DNA of 41,029 bases, from IMG/VR virus record IMGVR_UViG_3300045141_000064, positions 1-41,029 of that record. One strand, 5' to 3'. Of this stretch, positions 1 through 40,863 are shown in pieces (positions within the stretch are counted from its first letter, which is position 1; the number at the start of each line of letters is the position of its first letter). Under the pieces are notes generated by a model that ran no database searches, was not told where the DNA came from, and saw nothing but the letters and a program-made list of their open reading frames with translations. Both the position numbers and the translations under genes were made by a program. Source of the stretch: a virus.

Positions 1-528
1 GTGCTTGCCGTCACCGAACTTGCCGCCGATGGCAGCGAGTTCGCGCGTGACCTTCTTGTCCACGCACTTGATGTACATGCGCGTGTCGGTGACCTGACAG
101 GACATGACATCGACATCGAGGTCGAGCAGCACCGGCAGCAGAGAGGCTGCCATGTCCTCGTACTCCATGTCGGTCCTGAACTTGTCGGAGCGCACCGCGC
201 GCAGGTGACCGTCCTGTGTGCGGAACAGTTGCTTGGTGGCGTTGCGCGTGAACCATGTGTTCACGTTCTCCGCCAGCAGGAGGTGATCTTCCTCCCACAT
301 TTTGTCGTAGTACACCTTCGGGATTTTGGTCACTTCGGCCAGTTGAGCGTGGCCGATCTTGTTGATCCAGAAGGACATGTCACCGACGTGCAGCTTCGGC
401 TGCTCGCCCTTGTCGTGGCCCGCCACCATTTCGACGTTCTTGGTGTTGGCGATGAAGTCCTTCTTAGTCTCCGCGCGGCGAGCGATTTCGGCGGCGAAGT
501 CTTGGATGGAGTGGATACCCGTCTTCAT
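1..528 (-). CDS. DUF932-family phage protein, copy 1 (N-terminal part, cut by window edge)
   Basis: The reading frame starts at ATG 528 and stays open for 176 codons to base 1, so the C-terminal half lies outside the window. The start is preceded by AGGAGAACGACA, a good ribosome binding site. The product matches the complete DUF932 (phage/plasmid-like TIGR03299 type) protein at 39772-40863: shared stretches include IARRAETKKDFIANTKNVEM near residues 15-34, NKIGHAQ and YEDMAASLLPVLLDLDVDVM. DUF932 proteins are common on phages and plasmids; their biochemical role is unknown. The two copies are nearly identical at bases 1-240 but diverge over the first third of the gene, including a different loop after NVEM. 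It is transcribed divergently from the early module. Confidence 0.85.
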   Translation of the reverse strand, partial: MKTGIHSIQDFAAEIARRAETKKDFIANTKNVEMVAGHDKGEQPKLHVGDMSFWINKIGHAQLAEVTKIPKVYYDKMWEEDHLLLAENVNTWFTRNATKQLFRTQDGHLRAVRSDKFRTDMEYEDMAASLLPVLLDLDVDVMSCQVTDTRMYIKCVDKKVTRELAAIGGKFGDGKH

Positions 529-2139: not shown

Positions 2140-2367
2140 ATGACCACAAAACTAGAACTGAAGGACATCCCCGGTATGCCGGGGCTGGTCGCCTACCAGA
2201 TCACCGCACCAACGGCCGACGAAGTTCAGGTCGCCATTACCCGCATCATGAACCGCATCAGCCGCGTCGGCGGTGTGGCCGAGTTCCGCAACCCATACCG
2301 TGTCGGGGCCGAGTGGCTGGCGCGCGGTTACGTCAAGGAGAACGTCAGTGAAAAAACCGAAGGCTAA
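2140..2367 (+). CDS. Small protein of unknown function (75 aa)
   Basis: The likely start is ATG 2140, preceded by GAGGG at the expected distance; the open frame extends further upstream but that would run through the terminator. The product is mostly a single alpha/beta module (TADEVQVAITRIMNRISRVG, then AEFRNPYRVGAEWLARGYV). It is the first gene after a terminator, and its 3' end overlaps the GTG start of the ERF gene, so the two are translationally coupled. A TATAAC hexamer at 2107-2112 could be a -10 for this unit, without a convincing -35. No family recognised. Confidence 0.7.
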   Translation: MTTKLELKDIPGMPGLVAYQITAPTADEVQVAITRIMNRISRVGGVAEFRNPYRVGAEWLARGYVKENVSEKTEG

Positions 2368-3157
2368 GATGCCGCGCGGTCAGGGCACCAAGCTGCCCAT
2401 GCCCGCCGCACCACCACGTCCGCCGATGACGGACGCACAGGCCTTCCTCGCCATGATCGACCGGGCCGCGCGCGACCCGCACGTTGACATCGGCAAGATG
2501 CGCGAACTGCTGGCGATGCGGAACGACGAGCAACAGCGCATTGCCAAGCAAGCCTTCAGCGCCGCGATGGTCGAGTGTCAGGACGGCATGCGGCCGATCA
2601 AGAAGAACATGCAAGCCGACCGCTTCCGCTACGCCAGCCTCGAAGCCCTCGACGATGCCCTGCGCGGCATCTACTCGAAGGCAGGCTTTGCGCTGTCGTA
2701 CAACTCCGCACCCATCGAGGGCAGCCTGAACCGACTGCTGATCAGTTGCACGGTGATGCACCGGGGCGGCCACGAGCAAGTGTACAGCGTGCCGATCACG
2801 GTCAGCACCAAGGGGCCGAAGGGCAGCGAGGTGATGACGCAGACGCAAGGCGAGGGCGCGGCTGTCTCGTTCGGCCGCCGCTACCTGCTGCTGATGATCT
2901 TCAACATCATCACGTCGGAGAGTGATGCGGCGATCACCATGAACGGCGGACCTATCAGCGACGAGCAACTGTGGGAGTTGGGTGAACTGATCAAGGCGAC
3001 CAAGACCGACGTGGCCGCCTTCTGCGGCTACATGCAGGTCGATGCGCTGGTGAACCTGCCGGTGTCAAAGTTCGCGGACGCCAAGGCAGCACTCGAAGCG
3101 AAAGAGAAGAAGCAACGACAACAGCAACAGGCAAGCGAAGGGAACCCCGCACAATGA
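2348..3157 (+). CDS. ERF-family single-strand DNA annealing protein
   Basis: ERF-superfamily recombinases (P22 Erf type) bind single-stranded DNA and anneal complementary strands, usually with a partner 5'-3' exonuclease. Diagnostic features are the central block with FRYASLEALDDALRGIYSKA (about residues 95-115), VMHRGGHEQVYSVPI, and the terminal GEGAAVSFGRRYLL signature (about 178-192). The preferred start is GTG 2348, preceded by AAGGAG with good spacing; ATG 2369 is an alternative. The tail is lysine- and glutamine-rich and disordered. It overlaps the next gene, a YqaJ exonuclease, by four bases (ATGA), the usual annealase-exonuclease pairing. Confidence 0.9.
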   Translation: MKKPKAKMPRGQGTKLPMPAAPPRPPMTDAQAFLAMIDRAARDPHVDIGKMRELLAMRNDEQQRIAKQAFSAAMVECQDGMRPIKKNMQADRFRYASLEALDDALRGIYSKAGFALSYNSAPIEGSLNRLLISCTVMHRGGHEQVYSVPITVSTKGPKGSEVMTQTQGEGAAVSFGRRYLLLMIFNIITSESDAAITMNGGPISDEQLWELGELIKATKTDVAAFCGYMQVDALVNLPVSKFADAKAALEAKEKKQRQQQQASEGNPAQ

Positions 3158-3825
3158 ACACGCTAGACGAGGCCAGATGGCTGGCAGACGCTGAGGCGCA
3201 ACCGATACTACAGGGCAGCCCCGAGTGGTTCGCCATGCGGCTTGGCAAGGTGACGGCGTCCCGCATCGCTGACGTGATGGCAAAGCCGCGCGTCCCCGGT
3301 GCAGGCATGCGCGTCAACTACATGTGGCAACTGGCGTGCGAGCGCATGACCGGGCAGCCGATGAAAACCTACCAGAGCAAGACGATGCTCGAAGCGCACG
3401 AGTGGGAACCGATTGCGCGCGCGGCCTACGCCTTTAAGTCCGACAACCACGTGTCGCAGGTGGCGTTCGTAGATCACAATGACATCCCGAACTGCGGCTG
3501 CTCGCCGGACGGGCTGATCGGTGACGAGGGCGACGGGCTGGTCGAAATTAAGTGCCCCGAACTCACGGCGCACATGGACACGCTGCTGCGCGAGGTCATC
3601 CCCAGCGAGTACGTCAAGCAGATGCAGTTCCAGATGGCTTGCTGCGAGCGGCTGTGGTGCGACTACGTCAGCTTCAACGCCGACCTGCCGGAGAACATGC
3701 GGGTGGCGATCATCCGCCTCCCGCGCGACGTGAACATGATCAGCGAAATGGAGGCGGAGGTCAGGAAGTTTCAGGCTGAACTGGCGGAGAAGGTGGGGCT
3801 GCTGCGCGAGAAGTTTCCGACATGA
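3154..3825 (+). CDS. YqaJ-type (lambda exonuclease family) recombination nuclease
   Basis: The protein should resect double-stranded DNA 5' to 3' to give 3' tails for the ERF protein encoded just upstream. The PD-(D/E)XK catalytic core is visible: D119 in CSPDGLIG, then E131 and K133 in LVEIKCPE, with an earlier glutamate in the EWEPIAR helix near residue 85. The N-terminal QGSPEWFAMRLGKVTASRI segment (about 20-38) is a hallmark of YqaJ nucleases. At 223 residues it is of normal length. ATGA overlaps on both sides place it in a tightly coupled operon. Together with ERF it would support recombination-dependent replication or end repair, and exchange between repeated genes such as the DUF932 copies. 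Confidence 0.92.
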   Translation: MNTLDEARWLADAEAQPILQGSPEWFAMRLGKVTASRIADVMAKPRVPGAGMRVNYMWQLACERMTGQPMKTYQSKTMLEAHEWEPIARAAYAFKSDNHVSQVAFVDHNDIPNCGCSPDGLIGDEGDGLVEIKCPELTAHMDTLLREVIPSEYVKQMQFQMACCERLWCDYVSFNADLPENMRVAIIRLPRDVNMISEMEAEVRKFQAELAEKVGLLREKFPT

Positions 3826-7033: not shown

Positions 7034-7080
7034 CGCAGTCCGCGCTACTGGCCCCTCACCCTGTCACGGGTGGGGGGTCT
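7031..7080. terminator. Paired hairpins between convergent gene ends
   Basis: TAGCGC/GCGCTA forms a small hairpin at the end of the plus-strand gene. A second stem (CCCTCACCC / GGGTGGGGG) spans the stop of the minus-strand gene. T-runs are poor, so termination is inferred mainly from position between convergent genes. Confidence 0.4.
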
Positions 7081-7499
7081 TCGTATGGGAAGATCACCTC
7101 GACCTCGTCGTCGGTGTCGATGCCGAGGTCTTGCAGCATGATCGGGCTGATGTCGGCCACGCGCCCGGTGCTTTCGTGCGGCCCCCAATCGGCCGGGTAG
7201 GCCATCAGTTCGCGCCCGGTCTTGACCGCGCGCACCAGTGCCCGCTGCGTCAGCAGCATGTCGTGCGGTGTCTCGTCGTAGTCCCATCGACAGGCGATGT
7301 AGTACACGGCCATCGAGTTGAGCCGACGCGCCAGCCCGCTGGTGTCATCCGGCTGGTACGGCAGGAACAGGTGCGGTGCGTCCATGATGTCGAAGATGAA
7401 CGCGAGCGGTTCGTCCGGCTGCACGCCTTCGTCGGTCGGACCACCGAACCAAGACACCGGGCCTTGCAGGTGCAGGATCACTTCGGCACCGCGCCACAC
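7056..7499 (-). CDS. RlpA-like double-psi barrel protein, probable lysis-cassette member
   Basis: I read this 147-residue protein as a compact beta-barrel domain. The diagnostic part is AYPADWGPHESTGRVADISP (about residues 99-118), followed by LGIDTDDEVEVIFP, which resembles the DWGP...GRVIDLS...LG core of RlpA/DPBB proteins. A WFGGPTDEGV segment near residue 17 would form the first strand. RlpA proteins act on peptidoglycan; here the gene is the last of the late operon, after a one-helix coiled-coil protein and a secreted protein, as expected for a lysis cassette. It has no signal peptide. The start is GTG 7499, overlapping the previous gene by 22 bases. Catalytic activity is not established. 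Confidence 0.6.
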   Translation of the reverse strand: MWRGAEVILHLQGPVSWFGGPTDEGVQPDEPLAFIFDIMDAPHLFLPYQPDDTSGLARRLNSMAVYYIACRWDYDETPHDMLLTQRALVRAVKTGRELMAYPADWGPHESTGRVADISPIMLQDLGIDTDDEVEVIFPYEDPPPVTG

Positions 7500-7771
7500 T
7501 CGCCGCGCATGTAGGCCGTGGTCATGACGTTGCCGGTGGCTGGCGTGATCGGGCTGTCGAAGCCGGGACCGCCGAGGCCAAGCACGTCGCCTTGGCAGTT
7601 GGTCCGGCGCGACAGGTCGTAGAACATGCCGAGCACCGGGATGGCGGCAATCGGAACGCCGACCGGCTGCACCACCGGGCGCGGCGGCGGTAGCTTGTGG
7701 ATGCGGACGTGCGTGCGCGCGTCGGCTGGCGAGGCCGCCAGCACCAGCATGATGATCAGCCAGTTCTTCAT
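7478..7771 (-). CDS. Secreted small protein in lysis-like cassette (97 aa)
   Basis: ATG 7771 opens a clear Sec signal peptide (MKNWLIIMLVLAASPADA, about residues 1-18, cleavage after ADA). The mature part is proline- and valine-rich (LPPPRPVVQPVGVPIAAIP) and then carries a Cys-Gly-containing segment with FYDLSRRTNCQGDVLGLGG. There is no lipobox, so it is probably not a lipoprotein o-spanin. It overlaps the upstream coiled-coil gene by four bases (ATGA) and the downstream RlpA-like gene. A periplasmic role during lysis is inferred from location; a spanin-type component remains possible. Confidence 0.6.
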   Translation of the reverse strand: MKNWLIIMLVLAASPADARTHVRIHKLPPPRPVVQPVGVPIAAIPVLGMFYDLSRRTNCQGDVLGLGGPGFDSPITPATGNVMTTAYMRGECGAVPK

Positions 7772-8025
7772 TTCTTGTCTCCCTTGTTCAGGTCGCGCAG
7801 CAGAATTTCCTTCATCTGCTCGATGGTCAACTTGTTGGCGTCGGTCTTGCCTTCCAGCACCGTCAACCGGGTGTCAATCACGACAAGGTGGGGACTGCCC
7901 CTCGTCTCCAACGTGGTCACCCGCGTTTCAAGTTTCACAACGTAGGCCGTCACGCTGAAGATGGCGACCACCAGACCGCCAAGGAAATAGTTCTCCTTGA
8001 TCCACGATGTGACGGCGGTCGTCAT
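7768..8025 (-). CDS. One-helix membrane protein with coiled coil, candidate holin or i-spanin (85 aa)
   Basis: The start is ATG 8025. A single transmembrane segment (FLGGLVVAIFSVTAYVV, about residues 14-30) is followed by a heptad-repeat helix (LETRVTTLETRG, then VIDTRLTVLEGKTDANKLTIEQM). This layout, with an inner-membrane anchor and a periplasmic or cytosolic coiled coil, is found in i-spanins and in XhlA-type hemolysin proteins. Position in the last three genes of the late operon supports a lysis role. No two- or three-helix holin is adjacent; the two-helix protein at 30413-30655 may serve that function. Confidence 0.6.
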   Translation of the reverse strand: MTTAVTSWIKENYFLGGLVVAIFSVTAYVVKLETRVTTLETRGSPHLVVIDTRLTVLEGKTDANKLTIEQMKEILLRDLNKGDKK

Positions 8026-23585: not shown

Positions 23586-24491
23586 TCAAGAGCCGGGTCC
23601 GCCAGCCGGGGCACAGGTGATGATGCCGACCTTGCTTTCTTCCATGCGGGTCGCCCCGATGATCATGGAGTAGAACACCTGCGTGGCGTAGTTCTTGTCG
23701 GCGCGCTCGCTGATGCGCGCGGATGCGTCCTTGCCGATGCCCAACTTCAGGCCCGACTTGGCCCAATACAGCACGTTGTCGTTGAGCGAACCGTCGAGCA
23801 GCGTGCGCTGCGTGCGGATGAACTTGAAGCCGACGAAGGTGTCGATCTTGCCTTCGACCAGCGTCTTCACCGTGTTGTAGTCGGCCGACGTGGTGCGTGT
23901 GGTCGAGAGCAACGACGTGATCTGGCGAGCGGGGCACGCGATGTAGCGTTCCTCGTCGGCATCGACATCGTGGCTGTCGAGCATTTCCTTCGCGGCCAGC
24001 AACTTGGCGACGTTGAGGCCGTAGCTGCCAGCCGACGCCAGCGGGTCCTTGACGCCGATGCCGATGGTCATGGTGGTGTCGTAGGGCGTCTGCGTCGAGC
24101 CATCGACGCCGGTCGAGGCAACGCTGGTTGCGGCCACGATCAGCGCGTCGTCCATGGCGCGCCCCATCGCCCAAGCCGCCGCCTGTGCATACTGCGAGGC
24201 CGGGTCGATCAGCATGCGGACCTTGTCTTCCTGATCGACGAGGTCGGCCCAATCGTAGTCAACAAGCGCCACGCGCCTGCGGGCGTGTGGGGTATCCATG
24301 CGCGGGGTGTCGGAGTGGCGCGTGGTGCGGATTTGCGCCGCGACTTGCCCGATCTGTTCGAAGTACGCGGTCTTGCCGACCACGCTTTCACTCTCGACCG
24401 CCATCCTTAGACGGCTGCCTTTTTGCTGCGCCAGATGCGCGACGTTGCCTTTGTACTGCTCGACAAAGGCGGTGGTGATCTGAAACGACAC
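23586..24491 (-). CDS. Major capsid protein (301 aa)
   Basis: The gene starts at GTG 24491, preceded by GGAGG. Its place after portal and scaffold, its length, and its sequence pattern support a HK97-fold capsid protein: an N-terminal ITTAFVEQYKGNVAHLAQQK helix, RVALVDYDWADLVDQEDKVR, ASQYAQAAAWAMGRAMDDAL (the long spine helix, about 98-117), and the terminal DKNYATQVFYSMIIGATRME. Flanking hairpins on both sides (24506-24537 and 23544-23575) suggest dedicated control of its mRNA, as is usual for the most abundant virion protein. Confidence 0.88.
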   Translation of the reverse strand: MSFQITTAFVEQYKGNVAHLAQQKGSRLRMAVESESVVGKTAYFEQIGQVAAQIRTTRHSDTPRMDTPHARRRVALVDYDWADLVDQEDKVRMLIDPASQYAQAAAWAMGRAMDDALIVAATSVASTGVDGSTQTPYDTTMTIGIGVKDPLASAGSYGLNVAKLLAAKEMLDSHDVDADEERYIACPARQITSLLSTTRTTSADYNTVKTLVEGKIDTFVGFKFIRTQRTLLDGSLNDNVLYWAKSGLKLGIGKDASARISERADKNYATQVFYSMIIGATRMEESKVGIITCAPAGGPGS

Positions 24492-36094: not shown

Positions 36095-36405
36095 CAGCCA
36101 ACGCCGGGAATACTGCCGCCGGGAGGCAGGCCGCCGTTCGGCGGCAGGCCGCCGGGGATGACCTGACCCATGTTCTGGCTGCCGGTGTTTGCGCCCGTGT
36201 AGGCCTGCGCGTGGATCGGGTGCTTCATGTGAACCGGATGCTCGCCGTACTTCATCGGGGCGGCGTTGCCTTGCGGATGTTTCACGTGCTTGGGCAGGTC
36301 GTGCGCGCCCTTGGTGGCTTGGTCGAACTCCTTAACCACGCTAGGTCCGACCGGCGAGTTGGGTGAGTGAAAGAGGCCCTGCTGCGCTTGCGATTTATAC
36401 GGCAT
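36094..36405 (-). CDS. Small His-rich, Gly/Pro-tailed phage protein (103 aa)
   Basis: The N-terminus MPYKSQAQQGLFHSP, then GPSVVKEFDQATKG and DLPKHV, matches a pattern common in small phage proteins (KSEAQ...FE..T KG.. LPE). The middle is histidine-rich (KYGEHPVHMKHPIHAQ) and the C-terminus is Gly/Pro-rich (GLPPNGGLPPGG). It overlaps the genes on both sides. A structural role has been guessed for such proteins, but I cannot support it from sequence. Confidence 0.65.
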   Translation of the reverse strand: MPYKSQAQQGLFHSPNSPVGPSVVKEFDQATKGAHDLPKHVKHPQGNAAPMKYGEHPVHMKHPIHAQAYTGANTGSQNMGQVIPGGLPPNGGLPPGGSIPGVG

Positions 36406-36646
36406 AGGTGCTTCTCCGTTCGAAGTATTTGCACGCGCGCGTGTTGCGCGGGATTGAGTTGACCGGCTGGTGTCCGTTCATCATACGCGAGTACAACGCG
36501 CAGCCATAGCCGATTGAACCGCGCGGCTGAAGATGCTCACAGTCGCCGCACGCCTTGCCCTTGGGGCCGCTGCCAGCCCAATGCGCCATGCCCTCCGGCG
36601 TGCGCTTGACCATCCTGTCGAGGGCAGGGTTCGGTGAGGTCAACAT
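36395..36646 (-). CDS. Putative four-cysteine zinc protein (83 aa)
   Basis: Four cysteines in the order C-x-x-C (ACGDCEHLQ), C (YGCALYSR) and C (RACKYFERR) could bind one zinc or an Fe-S cluster. ATG 36646 overlaps the winged-helix gene upstream by seven bases. Function unknown; such proteins recur in alphaproteobacterial phages. Confidence 0.65.
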   Translation of the reverse strand: MLTSPNPALDRMVKRTPEGMAHWAGSGPKGKACGDCEHLQPRGSIGYGCALYSRMMNGHQPVNSIPRNTRACKYFERRSTYAV

Positions 36647-36945
36647 ACCGTCAGCCTGTACTCGTACAGCCCGCCCTGAAGATGGCGGCGCTCGACCAGA
36701 TGGCCGCCGTACTTGGCCTTGCGAAAATCGCGCAGCCGCGCACTCAGCGCCGCCTCGCTGCCCTCAACGTGCGCCGCGATGTTCGGCAGCGTGCGCCACT
36801 TGCCGTCCTTCATCAAAGCAAAAACCCGGCCAAGCTGGCAGTCGAGGCGCAGGTAGTCGCGCTCGACCGTGTAGGTGGCACCATCAAAAGCCCGCCGTGG
36901 TTCAGGCTTGGGCAGCGAGAACAGGTCGCCTTGTTCGGTTTGCAT
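36640..36945 (-). CDS. Winged-helix-like DNA-binding protein (101 aa)
   Basis: ATG 36945 is preferred because GGAGGG precedes it; 36978 is less likely. Residues about 32-95 look like a winged helix: QLGRVFALMKDGKWRTLPNI, then EAALSARLRDFRKAKYGGHL as recognition helix and beta hairpin, ending LQGGLYEYRLT. This pattern is common in phage proteins that control gene expression or replication. A sigma-70-like promoter candidate with TTGGTA, 17 bases, and TGC-TACGCA lies upstream. It is the first gene of a four-gene unit. Confidence 0.65.
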   Translation of the reverse strand: MQTEQGDLFSLPKPEPRRAFDGATYTVERDYLRLDCQLGRVFALMKDGKWRTLPNIAAHVEGSEAALSARLRDFRKAKYGGHLVERRHLQGGLYEYRLTVC

Positions 36946-37465: not shown

Positions 37466-37969
37466 CTAGGGGCTGAGGCTAGTCCCATGCGGGGACCTAA
37501 GTCTTAGCGGCGGTGGGGGGTTGCCCGCAATAGCCCTGTGCGTCGAGCAGTAGCTGCTCTCGCCGTCCTTCTGGCAGCCGCAGTAGCCACCGACCACAGG
37601 CCAGCGGCAATGTTCCTGCTCCAACTCCATGAACTCGACCGGCGTGATGCCTTCGAGCGGCAGCCACACCGCTTCCGGCGGTGGCGCGTGCGGAGGCTTC
37701 GGCAGCGACTTGTCCTTGCGGTGCTTGAGCATGGGCGATTGCTCCGTCCTTGAGGTCAGCGGGCGTTGCGGGCGCGGTCGGCATTTCTTCGGCTGCCATG
37801 GCCGGTGGGCATCCGACAGCTTCATCCGCCAGATGCGGCCGATGACCGAGTTCTTGCTGCGGCCAAGCCGGTCGGCAATCAGTCCGGTGGACAGGTTGCC
37901 GTAATGCTTGACGATCAGCGCGTCCTCGTCGGCCGTCCACGGCTTCTTAGACGTGTACTTGCGTGGCAC
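37466..37969 (-). CDS. GcrA-family transcriptional regulator homologue (167 aa)
   Basis: GcrA is an alphaproteobacterial cell-cycle regulator that binds sigma-70 RNA polymerase and CcrM-methylated GANTC promoters. Residues about 11-52 carry its N-terminal HTH pattern (WTADEDALIVKHY, LIADRLGRSKNSVIGRIWRM). The C-terminal EHCRWPV...YCGC...SSYCSTHR (about 119-145) is the family's conserved Cys/His region (C121, C130, C132, C141, H144). The middle is Pro/Arg-rich. It overlaps the upstream HTH gene by 23 bases, so both are expressed together. A phage copy could redirect host cell-cycle transcription or compete with host GcrA. Confidence 0.85.
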   Translation of the reverse strand: MPRKYTSKKPWTADEDALIVKHYGNLSTGLIADRLGRSKNSVIGRIWRMKLSDAHRPWQPKKCRPRPQRPLTSRTEQSPMLKHRKDKSLPKPPHAPPPEAVWLPLEGITPVEFMELEQEHCRWPVVGGYCGCQKDGESSYCSTHRAIAGNPPPPLRLRSPHGTSLSP

Positions 37970-38168
37970 GGACGATTGTCTCCATGGGCAGCTTGGTCAC
38001 TTCGGCAATGCGCGCGAGCAGACCGACCGACGGGTTCTTGGTCGAGTTCTCGATGTCGGACAGGTGTGGTGCGGAGGCCTTCACCTTCTTGCCGAGCACC
38101 GCCAGCGACATGCGGCCGTTCTCGAAGCGCCAGCGCGTCAGTGGGTGGATGTTCTTCTTCTTCGCCAT
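37947..38168 (-). CDS. Cro/CI-type HTH regulator (73 aa)
   Basis: A single HTH_3 domain fills the protein: LTRWRFENGRMSLAVLGKKV, then KASAPHLSDIENSTKNPSVG and LLARIAEVTKLPMETI. ATG 38168 follows GGAGTAACCCT. It lacks a C-terminal CI-type oligomerisation domain, so it is Cro-like. It sits back-to-back with the PEP-CTERM gene pair, and an inverted repeat GCTAT-CCC-ATAGC overlaps its own probable -10, suggesting autoregulation and control of the divergent operon. Confidence 0.88.
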   Translation of the reverse strand: MAKKKNIHPLTRWRFENGRMSLAVLGKKVKASAPHLSDIENSTKNPSVGLLARIAEVTKLPMETIVRATQVHV

Positions 38169-38285: not shown

Positions 38286-38903
38286 ATGAAGAAAACCGTA
38301 CTACTGGCGGCACTCGCCCTGTTGGCGGCGGCACCAGCGGGTGCTGCGACCGTTACCGGCACCTACACGGCATCGCTGAGCATGCAATCGGGTGGCTTTG
38401 CCACGCTGGAAAGCAACTTGGCTTCGCCGTTCAGTCTGACATCCGGGGCAACACGCTCGCTGTTCCTGACCGTCGATCCCGGTGGGATATGCCTCTACAA
38501 CTGCAATCCCACGCACGGCACCATCACTGTCACGTTCTCGAACCTGACAGTGAACGGCCACAACTTCGGTGGCTTTACCGAAACTGGCCTATTCACCGCC
38601 AACTACTCCAACCAGACCGACAGCGTGGTCTGGGCGGGGGCGACGGCACAATCTGGCTTCGGCTTGGACCAAGACGGCTCAACGCCGCTGGTTTTTACCG
38701 ACACCATGAACGGCGGCGCTTTCGGCACACTCAAGATCAACTTGGTCGATGGTGCCGATTGGAACGTGCAGACATGGGCCGAGGCTGGTTTTCAGGCTGC
38801 GGCCACCACACCACTCCCGGCAGCCGTTTGGCTGTTCGGCAGCGCATTGGGCGGGGGCGCTCTCGTGCTCCGCCGTCGTCGTAAAAAAGAGGCAACCACA
38901 TGA
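38286..38903 (+). CDS. PEP-CTERM-type secreted protein 1 (205 aa)
   Basis: ATG 38286 follows AAAGAGGCTGAA. A Sec signal peptide (MKKTVLLAALALLAAAPAGA) leads into a beta-rich domain of Thr/Gly/Ser-rich sequence. The last 31 residues are a PEP-CTERM-type signal: TPLPAAVWLFGSALGGGALV followed by the basic run RRRRKK and a short tail, matching the VPLPAAVWLFGSGL form of the exosortase signal. Such proteins are exported, recognised by an inner-membrane exosortase, cleaved and released or anchored with exopolysaccharide. A pair of cysteines occurs in GGICLYNCNP. The phage copy may alter the surface of the infected cell. It overlaps the next gene by ATGA. Confidence 0.85.
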   Translation: MKKTVLLAALALLAAAPAGAATVTGTYTASLSMQSGGFATLESNLASPFSLTSGATRSLFLTVDPGGICLYNCNPTHGTITVTFSNLTVNGHNFGGFTETGLFTANYSNQTDSVVWAGATAQSGFGLDQDGSTPLVFTDTMNGGAFGTLKINLVDGADWNVQTWAEAGFQAAATTPLPAAVWLFGSALGGGALVLRRRRKKEATT

Positions 38904-39577
38904 AGAAGCTGCTGATTGCTTCGGTTGCGGTGCTGGCGCTGTCTGCTCCCGCGTGGGCCGACACCATCACTATGACCGCGAAGGTTGACGGCGTCACAGT
39001 CGCCGTCGATAGCAGCGCCGATGGAAACTTGGACATCAGTGCCCAATCCTTCGGCTCTGCCTTCAACCTCAACTCGTTGAGCATCAACACCGAGACGTTT
39101 CTGGCGGTGCCGGACCTGCTCTCGACCAACACGCTCAACATCAATCAGTCGGTTGGTGGCAATCACCAACTGACAATCGACATCAAGGGGTTCGGGTTGA
39201 CCGGCCCCGCTGCTGTCGAGGCGTTGCTGTCTTCGTTCAGCGTCACGGGCCTGACAGCGGGCTGGTCAGCCCAAGAGCAGACCTTCATTGACGGCGTCCT
39301 GCTGGCCGACACTGGCGTGTTCACCGCCACGTCCGACAGTGCGTTCTCCGTCAACAGTGTGCTGGTCGGCGGCCTGTTCACCGCTGAAGCCCTCTACACG
39401 ATCAACTCGGTCGGTATCGGGCGCTTCAACGGTGGCATCGACATCAGCGCGGCGTCAACGACACCGCTGCCGGGTGCGATCTGGCTGTTCGGCAGCGCGC
39501 TTGCTGCCTTCGGTCTGGTGACACACGGCAGGAAGAAGCCAAAGTCGGCGTGGGACATTTCGCCCCGCGCGGCGTAA
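38900..39577 (+). CDS. PEP-CTERM-type secreted protein 2 (225 aa)
   Basis: Start ATG 38900 overlaps the previous stop. Signal peptide MKKLLIASVAVLALSAPAWA, then a beta-rich domain. The sorting signal TPLPGAIWLFGSALAAFGLV begins at residue 188 and is followed by THGRKKPK and then a further ten residues (SAWDISPRAA), longer than the usual PEP-CTERM tail. The bodies of the two proteins share little clear sequence apart from composition, so they are partners rather than recent duplicates. Both proteins are expressed from one unit next to a Cro-like regulator, suggesting a lysogenic-conversion or superinfection-exclusion role; this is inference. Confidence 0.82.
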   Translation: MKKLLIASVAVLALSAPAWADTITMTAKVDGVTVAVDSSADGNLDISAQSFGSAFNLNSLSINTETFLAVPDLLSTNTLNINQSVGGNHQLTIDIKGFGLTGPAAVEALLSSFSVTGLTAGWSAQEQTFIDGVLLADTGVFTATSDSAFSVNSVLVGGLFTAEALYTINSVGIGRFNGGIDISAASTTPLPGAIWLFGSALAAFGLVTHGRKKPKSAWDISPRAA

Positions 39578-39583
39578 CATCAA

Positions 39584-39660
39584 CCCGGTGTCGTGGTCGC
39601 TAAGTTCTAGGAAGTCCCAAACACTCCCGACCGACAAAGCGCCACAACCACGGCACCGGG
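39584..39660 (+). ncRNA. Long-range inverted repeat after the PEP-CTERM pair
   Basis: CCCGGTGTCGTGGT (39584-39597) pairs with ACCACGGCACCGGG (39647-39660), 14 bp with one G-T pair, enclosing 49 bases. It lies between the second stop and the terminator, so it would be the 3' untranslated RNA or a small processed RNA. No known RNA family is claimed. Confidence 0.35.
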
Positions 39661-39721
39661 CACCTCGCGCCGCGAACAGGCGGTGTTCCCCACCCAGAGA
39701 CACGGCGCGGGGTGTCACGAA

Positions 39722-39749
39722 AAAAGCCGGGGGTTGCCCCCCGGCTTTT
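39722..39749. terminator. Bidirectional intrinsic terminator
   Basis: AAAAGCCGGGGG / CCCCCGGCTTTT with a 4-base loop, giving A/T runs on both sides. It serves the plus-strand PEP-CTERM unit and the minus-strand DUF932 gene. Confidence 0.92.
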
Positions 39750-39771
39750 CCTCGTTCAGGCCTAAGCGCGA

Positions 39772-40863
39772 CTAGGCGGCCTGTGCGATGCGCTTCCACT
39801 CGTTCGAGTTGAGTTCGATCACCTGTGCGCCGATGCGTTCCAGATCGGTCGCCCGGTCGTAGTCATCGACGTGCTGCGATGCTGCGGTGATCGCGTTGTA
39901 CAAGCCGAAGCGTGAGAGGTCGCCGCCGCTTGCCAGTTCCTTGAGGACCGACTTGCCCTCGACCTCGTTGAGGCCGAACGTCTTGCCAGCCATCGACACC
40001 ACCTTGACCAGATCGTCGCTTTCGATCTTGTCGGCCTGTGTGCCCTCGACCTTGCACGCCAGCGCCTCGAACTGAACCTTGTCGAAGGCCGCGCGTGTCA
40101 CGTCCACAAGCTGCGCCATCGACGCCACCTGTGTCTTGCGCTTCGTCTCGTCGGTGAGCATCGTGTAGTGCGCCTCGCTCACCAGTTCGTGCCGCGCGCC
40201 GACATGGTACTTGCGAACAGACCGTTCGCTGAAGGTCGCGAGGTTCGAGCAGAAGCTGTCGTAGAGGCCGGTCAACACGTTCGCGCCACCGTAGCCGACT
40301 TCGCTGTCGGAAATGGTGATCGCGGGCGACAGGCAGCGCACGATGTTGTGCTTGCCGTCACCGAACTTGCCGCCGATGGCAGCGAGTTCGCGCGTGACCT
40401 TCTTGTCCACGCACTTGATGTACATGCGCGTGTCGGTGACCTGACACGACATGACATCGACATCGAGGTCGAGCAGCACCGGCAGCAAAGAAGCTGCCAT
40501 GTCCTCGTACTCCATGTCGGTGCGGAACTTGTCGGAGCGCACCGCGCGCAAGTGACCATCCTGCGTGCGGAACAGTTGCTTGGTGGCGTTCTTGCGGAAC
40601 CACGTGTTGACGTTGTCGGCCAGCAGCGAGGGGTCTTCCGCCAGCATCTTGTCGTAGTAGGCCTTCGGGATTTTGGTCACCTCCGCGATCTGCGCGTGAC
40701 CGATCTTGTTCACCCCGAACTCCATGTCGCCAACCGTGACCGTTGGTTCGGCCAGCGGCTGCATTTCGACGTTCTTGGTGTTGGCGATGAAGTCCTTTTT
40801 TGTCTCCGCGCGCCGTGCGATTTCGGCGGCGAACTCTTGGATGGAATGTATTCCTGCCTTCAT
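39772..40863 (-). CDS. DUF932-family phage protein, copy 2 (363 aa)
   Basis: The complete copy of the family also present at 1-528. ATG 40863 follows AGGAGTACGCT. The product has the DUF932 layout (phage/plasmid-like TIGR03299 type): an N-terminal helical region, the LFRTQDGHLRAVRSDKFRTD strand pair (about residues 96-115), TDTRMYIKCVDKKVTRELAA, and a C-terminal VTRAAFDKVQFEAL region. Length is near normal. It is flanked by its own sigma-70-like promoter with perfect TATAAT and by a terminator, so it is a monocistronic unit likely to be highly expressed. The function of the family is unknown; association with plasmids and phage early regions hints at DNA metabolism. Confidence 0.88.
   Translation of the reverse strand: MKAGIHSIQEFAAEIARRAETKKDFIANTKNVEMQPLAEPTVTVGDMEFGVNKIGHAQIAEVTKIPKAYYDKMLAEDPSLLADNVNTWFRKNATKQLFRTQDGHLRAVRSDKFRTDMEYEDMAASLLPVLLDLDVDVMSCQVTDTRMYIKCVDKKVTRELAAIGGKFGDGKHNIVRCLSPAITISDSEVGYGGANVLTGLYDSFCSNLATFSERSVRKYHVGARHELVSEAHYTMLTDETKRKTQVASMAQLVDVTRAAFDKVQFEALACKVEGTQADKIESDDLVKVVSMAGKTFGLNEVEGKSVLKELASGGDLSRFGLYNAITAASQHVDDYDRATDLERIGAQVIELNSNEWKRIAQAA

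Follow-up and report, generated by a model that had tools for sequence, protein, structure and literature searches.

Overlapping phage genes for exported proteins with PEP-CTERM-type sorting signals: a probable modular cargo unit

The record of a soil phage (IMG/VR virus record IMGVR_UViG_3300045141_000064, analysed over its whole length of 41,029 bases and called the window below) contains two overlapping genes that encode exported proteins with C-terminal sorting signals of the PEP-CTERM type. Genes of this kind recur in phages with unrelated terminases, their bodies and signals are found in different combinations, and the bodies are under purifying selection. We think it probable that the pair is modular phage cargo and that the host sorts its products to the cell surface or into the exopolysaccharide.

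Exosortase substrates are known as chromosomal proteins of exopolysaccharide-making bacteria, and the function of most of them is open; phage moron, or lysogenic-conversion, genes alter the host surface. A search of the titles and abstract openings of open-access papers (subscription papers and preprints being outside its scope) returned no phage-encoded PEP-CTERM operon. The nearest case is in the accessible part of PMC11003980, where proteins of the TIGR03118 family, which have a putative exosortase-interaction domain at the C-terminus, are counted among horizontally acquired hot-spring virus genes; the genes in the accessible part of PMC12642866 are host genes.

Anatomy of the gene pair and its sorting signals

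The two genes overlap by 4 bases, and a gap of 117 nt lies upstream of the unit. Their parts are as follows:

38286-38903, plus strand: gene 1, exported PEP-CTERM-type protein of 205 aa
38808-38900, plus strand: sorting signal of gene 1, TPLPAAVWLFGSALGGGALVLRRRRKKEATT; TIGR03370 score 14.5 bits
38900-39577, plus strand: gene 2, exported PEP-CTERM-type protein of 225 aa
39461-39574, plus strand: sorting signal and tail of gene 2; TIGR03370 score 16.6 bits; common to L027/L028, where the bodies are of another family
39545-39574, plus strand: extended tail SAWDISPRAA of gene 2, after the basic cluster, predicted to be cytoplasmic

By inspection, the N-terminus of each protein is a signal peptide of the basic-hydrophobic-AxA kind, and the C-termini (TPLPAAVWLFGSALGGGALVLRRRRKKEATT in gene 1 and TPLPGAIWLFGSALAAFGLVTHGRKKPKSAWDISPRAA in gene 2) both consist of TPLP(A/G)A(V/I)W, then a hydrophobic helix, then a basic cluster at the extreme end. 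The combination of this motif with a basic cluster near the end of an open reading frame occurs twice in the window, in genes 1 and 2, and was absent from 300 first-order Markov simulations, in which codon structure is not preserved. The preliminary description of this DNA, which had reported two overlapping genes with a signal peptide and such a C-terminal signal, was correct on this point; both are real and they are the only such reading frames in the window.

The bodies between the signals are rich in Ser, Thr and Asn (together 31.2% in gene 1 and 29.9% in gene 2, against a mean of 14.8% and a maximum of 25.0% in the 49 other window reading frames called by our own analysis) and poor in Lys and Arg (1.3% and 1.8%; the same 49 average 11.6%, with a minimum of 4.7%). 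Cys makes up 0% of gene 2 and 1.3% of gene 1, which is not low. According to the accessible part of Haft et al. (PMC1569441), a Ser/Thr/Asn-rich body poor in basic residues and Cys is a trait of PEP-CTERM proteins, so the composition of the pair is the one given there, with the Cys content of gene 1 as the exception. The bodies had also been called beta-rich, and for this the support is weak: the AlphaFold model of gene 2 shows strands and a C-terminal helix (192-209, low confidence), but its mean pLDDT is 44.9, and the models are poor (pLDDT 44.9 and 51.1).

Both window signals score below every curated cut-off: gene 1 reaches 12.8 with TIGR02595 (cut-off 16), gene 2 reaches 12.7 with PF07589 (cut-off 20.7), and the VPLPA-CTERM model TIGR03370 (cut-off 25.35), which matches no other place in the window record, gives the two scores listed above. 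TPLP replaces the near-invariant PEP of the canonical signal in them, and they are nearer the VPLPA variant. When TIGR03370 was run on a set of 36 virus records, made up of the window and 35 others found by way of its relatives (many of them fragments), 29 matched at E <= 0.01, as did none of 14 control genomes, and eight (G006, G007, G008, G012, G013, G015, G033 and G034) exceeded the curated cut-off; six of the eight are cargo records (below), and G033 and G034 are without demonstrated kinship to the window phage. The seven records that the model misses are six with signals of the VPGPI/VPAPI type (below) and G032. The comparison of both C-termini with PEP-CTERM profiles, as first proposed, is divided in outcome: the window proteins fall short of the curated thresholds, and relatives in these records match.

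Other curated models also match relatives of the pair. L010 gene 1 is above the PF07589 cut-off (21.5 versus 20.7), and the FxDxF PEP-CTERM model NF038126 matches L013, and with it others of the largest phage body family, over nearly the full length (8.6e-10); at 39.1 bits L013 is below the cut-off of 50, so it is no curated member, and it is phage-carried. The floc_PepA model (NF033554, cut-off 80 bits) matches gene 1 (0.0042), L018 (0.0017) and L010 gene 1 (2e-5) weakly, over stretches that contain the signal itself. The second gene of the G008 pair (L010, 9434-10105) has weak matches to TIGR03934 (TQXA, 0.021) and PF08341 (thioester domain, 0.21), a hint of a covalent adhesin.

Phage context and recurrence of the unit

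The window carries the hallmarks of a phage (head-tail connector, tail, terminase, head and Erf/RecE-like genes). The features that bear on the setting of the pair are these:

2348-3157, plus strand: Erf-like ssDNA annealing protein (phrog_155, 1.6e-29)
3154-3825, plus strand: RecE-like exonuclease (phrog_149, 9.6e-43; phrog_434, 3.5e-16)
37466-37969, minus strand: GcrA-like regulator (PF07750, 55.3 bits, cut-off 26.9)
37947-38168, minus strand: HTH_3 (Cro/XRE-like) regulator, divergent from the pair (PF01381, 25.2 bits, cut-off 23)
39610-39649, plus strand: intergenic element past the end of the pair, 90% identical over 40 columns with L029 (E 3.8e-6) and 87% over 31 with L002-L004 (E 0.024)
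39722-39749, no strand assigned: hairpin with a stem of 12 bp between A and T runs, a probable bidirectional terminator
39772-40863, minus strand: phrog_1362 phage gene right of the pair, 88% identical in G012 and G032

The unit adjoins a Cro-like regulator, as had been described; the HTH_3 match passes its cut-off. In G012 (L015) and G032 (L051) the phrog_1362 gene, of which each has one copy in the stretches examined, is followed by homologs of the genes at the left end of the window, including the recombination genes, so that the ends of the window adjoin each other there and the pair is internal to the phage genome; in G012 the cargo slot is mid-record with phage genes on both sides. TerL is 79–92% identical among the window, G012 and G032 (92% between the latter two), and in these three the position bounded by the HTH and phrog_1362 genes is occupied by different body families. 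The pair thus behaves as phage cargo, and the possibility that this end of the window is host chromosome is excluded by the phage genes on both sides of the unit. We also note that phrog_1362 paralogs, 85% identical in protein, are present at both ends of the record (1-528, minus strand, truncated; and 39772-40863, minus strand), and the assembly may have broken inside a tandem duplication.

A bidirectional terminator at the end of the unit, another element of the first account, is plausible. The hairpin is strong on both strands (39715-39765 folds at -25.9 kcal/mol on the plus and -29.7 kcal/mol on the minus strand, z -4.0 and -4.6), but a scan for consensus terminators gave one site, on the minus strand, which is not above the mean of 1.7 in shuffled sequence. 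The element at 39610-39649 likewise lies downstream of pairs in L029 and in the near-identical L002-L004. The stretch 39590-39720, which includes this conserved 40-bp element, has a predicted RNA fold better than that of shuffles (z -3.4), and Rfam gave no match in the window. A consensus scan found no sigma-70 site at the unit. Upstream sites of the sigma-54/PrsR type are common, but not required, in many proteobacterial PEP-CTERM genes; with a consensus for which 2 mismatches were allowed, there was none near 38286 and there were 6 matches elsewhere in the window, versus a mean of 10.75 expected.

Scans of viral sequences gave 43 records besides the window, namely 34 phage cargo records with TPLP/TPIP/VPIP-type signals, six of the VPGPI/VPAPI type and three that were set aside, so that further PEP-CTERM reading frames, for which the preliminary description had proposed a search of phage databases, are present in 34 more virus records. 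At least one other gene is common to the window phage and 27 of the 34 in the stretches examined; the remaining seven are L007, L030, L042 (which has a terminase match), L079, L088, L095 and L105. L016, L017 and L019, the three set aside, have PEP-CTERM reading frames but neither a window-phage gene in the stretch examined nor a phrog_2 match, and they may be misassigned bacterial DNA. L033-L035 and L044-L046 were also dropped from the phage counts, their signal being of another type (VPGPI/VPAPI-x-GAG(L/F)PG-hydrophobic-basic), unmatched by TIGR03370, on bodies of families 1 and 2 (below); three records of this type (G022-G024) carry integrases.

Two such genes are present in 13 distinct records, the window included and near-identical records merged by eye, and the gap between them is less than 100 bases in 11 of these pairs, 1823 in L014 and 575 in L020. 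Terminase (phrog_2) matches were found in 12 of the 36 records, and the eight of these terminases that were compared fall into four groups (window/G012/G032; G013/G015; G008; G025/G028) without mutual similarity (best between-group E 0.83); the cargo is thus present in at least four terminase lineages. In 15 of the 34 other cargo records the cargo has another place, no more than a few kb from homologs of window genes 7056-8025, a putative lysis region that is so labelled by inspection only, because 7056-7499 and 7768-8025 gave no match in a PHROG search. PF00589 integrases are present in 4 of the 36 records, including G008 (36297-36773, about 1.5 kb upstream of its pair), and absent from the window and the 31 others, many of which are fragments. 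Among 50,697 phage records there was no match to gene 1, L021, L013, L010 gene 2 or a 32-aa signal, nor does the gene 1 body have a relative in the viral contigs. Gene 2 gave 48 weak matches to the same phage records, the best 20 of the 48 being at E 0.5 and mostly to cell-wall hydrolase or rIIA, and these were taken as chance.

Exchange of bodies, signals and tails

Clustering by BLASTP placed 56 proteins in 12 body families (near-duplicates and VPGPI types included, L016 and L019 left out, and L034 removed by the motif rule). The signals on family 1 (19 proteins) are of the TPLPAAVW, TPIPGAIW, VPGPI and VPAPI kinds, in tailed and untailed forms, and family 2 (10 proteins) covers both TPLP and VPGPI signal types; the two window bodies are in other families than the largest, that of L013. 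What is kept over the body families is the TPLP/TPIP-x-A-x-W motif, beyond mere hydrophobicity. Comparison of DNA shows the same separation within single genes. Gene 2 and L022 are 81.5% identical in the body and 63.9% in the signal, and gene 2 and L027 are 39.6% identical in the body and 75.4% in the signal, so that gene 2 shares only the body with the former and only the signal with the latter, a mosaic in both directions. The values are 41.0% (body) and 71.0% (signal) for gene 1 and L027, and 89.7% and 56.7% for L009 and L015. Furthermore, when the DNA of the unit was aligned to other cargo loci, 19 of 25 alignments, from 12 contigs, had their left end at 38808, exactly where the gene 1 signal begins.

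Homologous bodies were compared in eight cases, and dN/dS was 0.01–0.14 (dS 0.46–2.0, with synonymous sites near saturation in several cases), which indicates that the bodies are maintained by selection; for gene 2 and the second gene of L022, which share 85% amino acid identity, dN/dS across the body was 0.07. Sorting signals within a record were not closer to each other than those of different records (similarity 0.635 versus 0.644, p 0.65, 12 pairs), which gives no support for signals matched to the host. Helix similarity was about equal among first genes (0.68), among second genes (0.65) and between first and second genes (0.65).

The extended tail that had been remarked on in the second protein is real and recurs across the cargo set. 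By eye, exactly one gene has an AW(D/S/P) tail in 10 of the 13 distinct pairs, the second gene in eight and the first in L014 and L020; the pairs L009, L010 and L031 have none, and no pair has both genes tailed. Single cargo genes occur with the tail (L015, L018, L021, L038-L040, L094 and L095) and without it (L042, L051, L079, L081 and L088). Across the entire collection of viral contigs its long form, G(A/V)WD(D/N)LPRx(D/E)FLPK, is present in 6; all of these belong to the cargo set, and in each the PEP-CTERM-type protein has this sequence as its end, on bodies of three families. By a span that we set ourselves, gene 2 has 13 residues beyond the domain and L018 and L021 have 19; in the accessible part of Haft et al. 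(PMC1569441), 87% of PEP-CTERM proteins have fewer than 10. The tail would face the cytoplasm.

Host sorting, alternative explanations and meaning

The terminase is 48% identical to that of phage C72C1 and 44.5% to that of Sinorhizobium phage phiM5, and the head protein (23586-24491) is 52–57% identical to proteins of Pelagibacter phages (best 20 of 119 records), so this phage group has a virion module akin to that of HTVC010P-like marine phages. GcrA is widely conserved in Alphaproteobacteria and present in Caulobacter phages (PMC9437464, accessible part), and the GcrA-like gene, together with the head and terminase similarities, suggests an alphaproteobacterial host. Homologs of this gene (37466-37969) are also present in several cargo-bearing relatives, and it may couple phage expression to the host cell cycle. 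PEP-CTERM genes are carried by soil bacteria (PMC1569441) and are absent from some Rhizobiales, for example Shinella (PMC9012009), as the accessible parts of these papers have it. An exosortase (PF09721) was found in none of the 36 virus records, many of them fragments, so processing would need the exosortase of the host. When 84,980 genomes of bacteria and archaea were scanned with body families 2 and 1 in place of the window's own bodies (two short peptide patterns each, of limited sensitivity, with 31 and 238 stretches checked), no confirmed relative emerged, which lends no support to a bacterial source of those bodies; plasmid searches gave no match.

We propose that the host Sec system would export both proteins and that the TPLP-hydrophobic-basic signal would anchor them in the inner membrane, until a host exosortase would cut each one and deliver it either to the surface of the cell or to its exopolysaccharide. 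Once there, they would most likely alter the outside of the cell, whether infected or carrier, through receptor masking or through retention of exopolysaccharide as by PepA, with the outcome that competing phages adsorb less well or that cells aggregate. These more specific roles, masking against superinfection or retention of the matrix, we advance as a tentative hypothesis. In bacteria, PEP-CTERM proteins are considered exosortase substrates, and retention of exopolysaccharide by Zoogloea cells depends on PepA (PMC9012009, accessible part). The locus looks suited to exchange: bodies are swapped in between a conserved signal peptide and a conserved sorting signal, the probable route being recombination at these short stretches, and the Erf-like annealing protein and RecE-like exonuclease of the window phage could drive such cassette exchange. 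The swapping of bodies fits contact with variable partners, such as receptors, competing phages or polysaccharides.

Among known systems the pair comes nearest to the substrates of the PEP-CTERM/exosortase (EpsH, Xrt) system in its TIGR03370 variant, with which it has in common a signal peptide, a Ser/Thr/Asn-rich, low-basic body and the order of motif, helix and basic cluster. The pair differs from these in being phage-encoded as an overlapping two-gene unit, in having TPLP in place of PEP and scores below cut-off, in the lack of a sigma-54 site in our scan, and in the AW(D/S/P) tail on one gene of most phage pairs. The resemblance to PepA, whose functional model is exopolysaccharide retention (PMC9012009, accessible part), is partly through the signal and far below 80 bits, and PepA differs from the phage genes in being chromosomal and under sigma-54 control. 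With phage morons the pair shares the form of an accessory unit with a probable terminator, an adjoining regulator and variable content at a fixed slot, but, bearing the host's sorting signal, it would depend on the host's sorting system.

Several other explanations could account for parts of these observations. The proteins could be plain C-tail-anchored periplasmic inner-membrane proteins and no exosortase substrates, acting at the membrane, perhaps to time lysis or to keep out the DNA of a second phage; the sub-cut-off signals, the lack of an exosortase in the phages, the proximity to the putative lysis genes in 15 of the 34 other records and a cytoplasmic AW(D) tail that could touch a phage or host protein all fit this. 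We nonetheless consider it rather improbable, since the TPLP/TPIP-x-A-x-W motif itself is conserved over body families, the VPLPA-CTERM score of relatives is above its cut-off, FxDxF PEP-CTERM proteins are matched by one body family, and the body composition is of the exosortase-substrate type. Somewhat unlikely, but less so, is lysogenic conversion, in which the genes would serve the carrier cell (in biofilm, flocculation or adhesion) and not infection, and which differs from host-sorted phage cargo as we read it in timing and not in sorting route. The adjoining divergent HTH regulator and the integrases of four records, that of G008 so near its pair, are in its favour, and the lack of a PF00589-type integrase in the window and the 31 other records, often fragmentary, is against it.

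It is very improbable that the two proteins belong to the virion or serve host recognition and only look like PEP-CTERM proteins: some proteins of the structural block are also Ser/Thr/Asn-rich, the next highest after the pair, but a signal peptide, membrane anchor and basic end argue against such a role, as does the position of the unit, which is outside the structural block and varies among phages. The idea that the pair is accidental host DNA or a binning error, without function, draws on the presence of PEP-CTERM genes in soil bacteria (PMC1569441, accessible part) and is close to refuted by phage genes on both sides of the cargo in G012, G032 and other records, by the low dN/dS of homologous bodies, by recurrence in phages with unrelated terminases and by the two body families without a confirmed relative in the bacterial and archaeal genomes.

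Host-sorted modular cargo remains the reading that we favour, and it leads to a broader and more tentative one. Unrelated phage lineages may draw on a common pool of exosortase-substrate cassettes, their bodies recombined between conserved signals, and so mount changing surface proteins through the sorting system of the host, with the phage-associated, AW(D)-tailed form of the signal giving one protein of most pairs a different fate. If so, this would be a modular surface-variation system for superinfection control and, to our knowledge, the first phage system to exploit the exosortase pathway. If phages do carry and exchange exosortase substrates, surface sorting would be a phage target, and the phage versions would be small conserved substrates for probing what PEP-CTERM proteins do.
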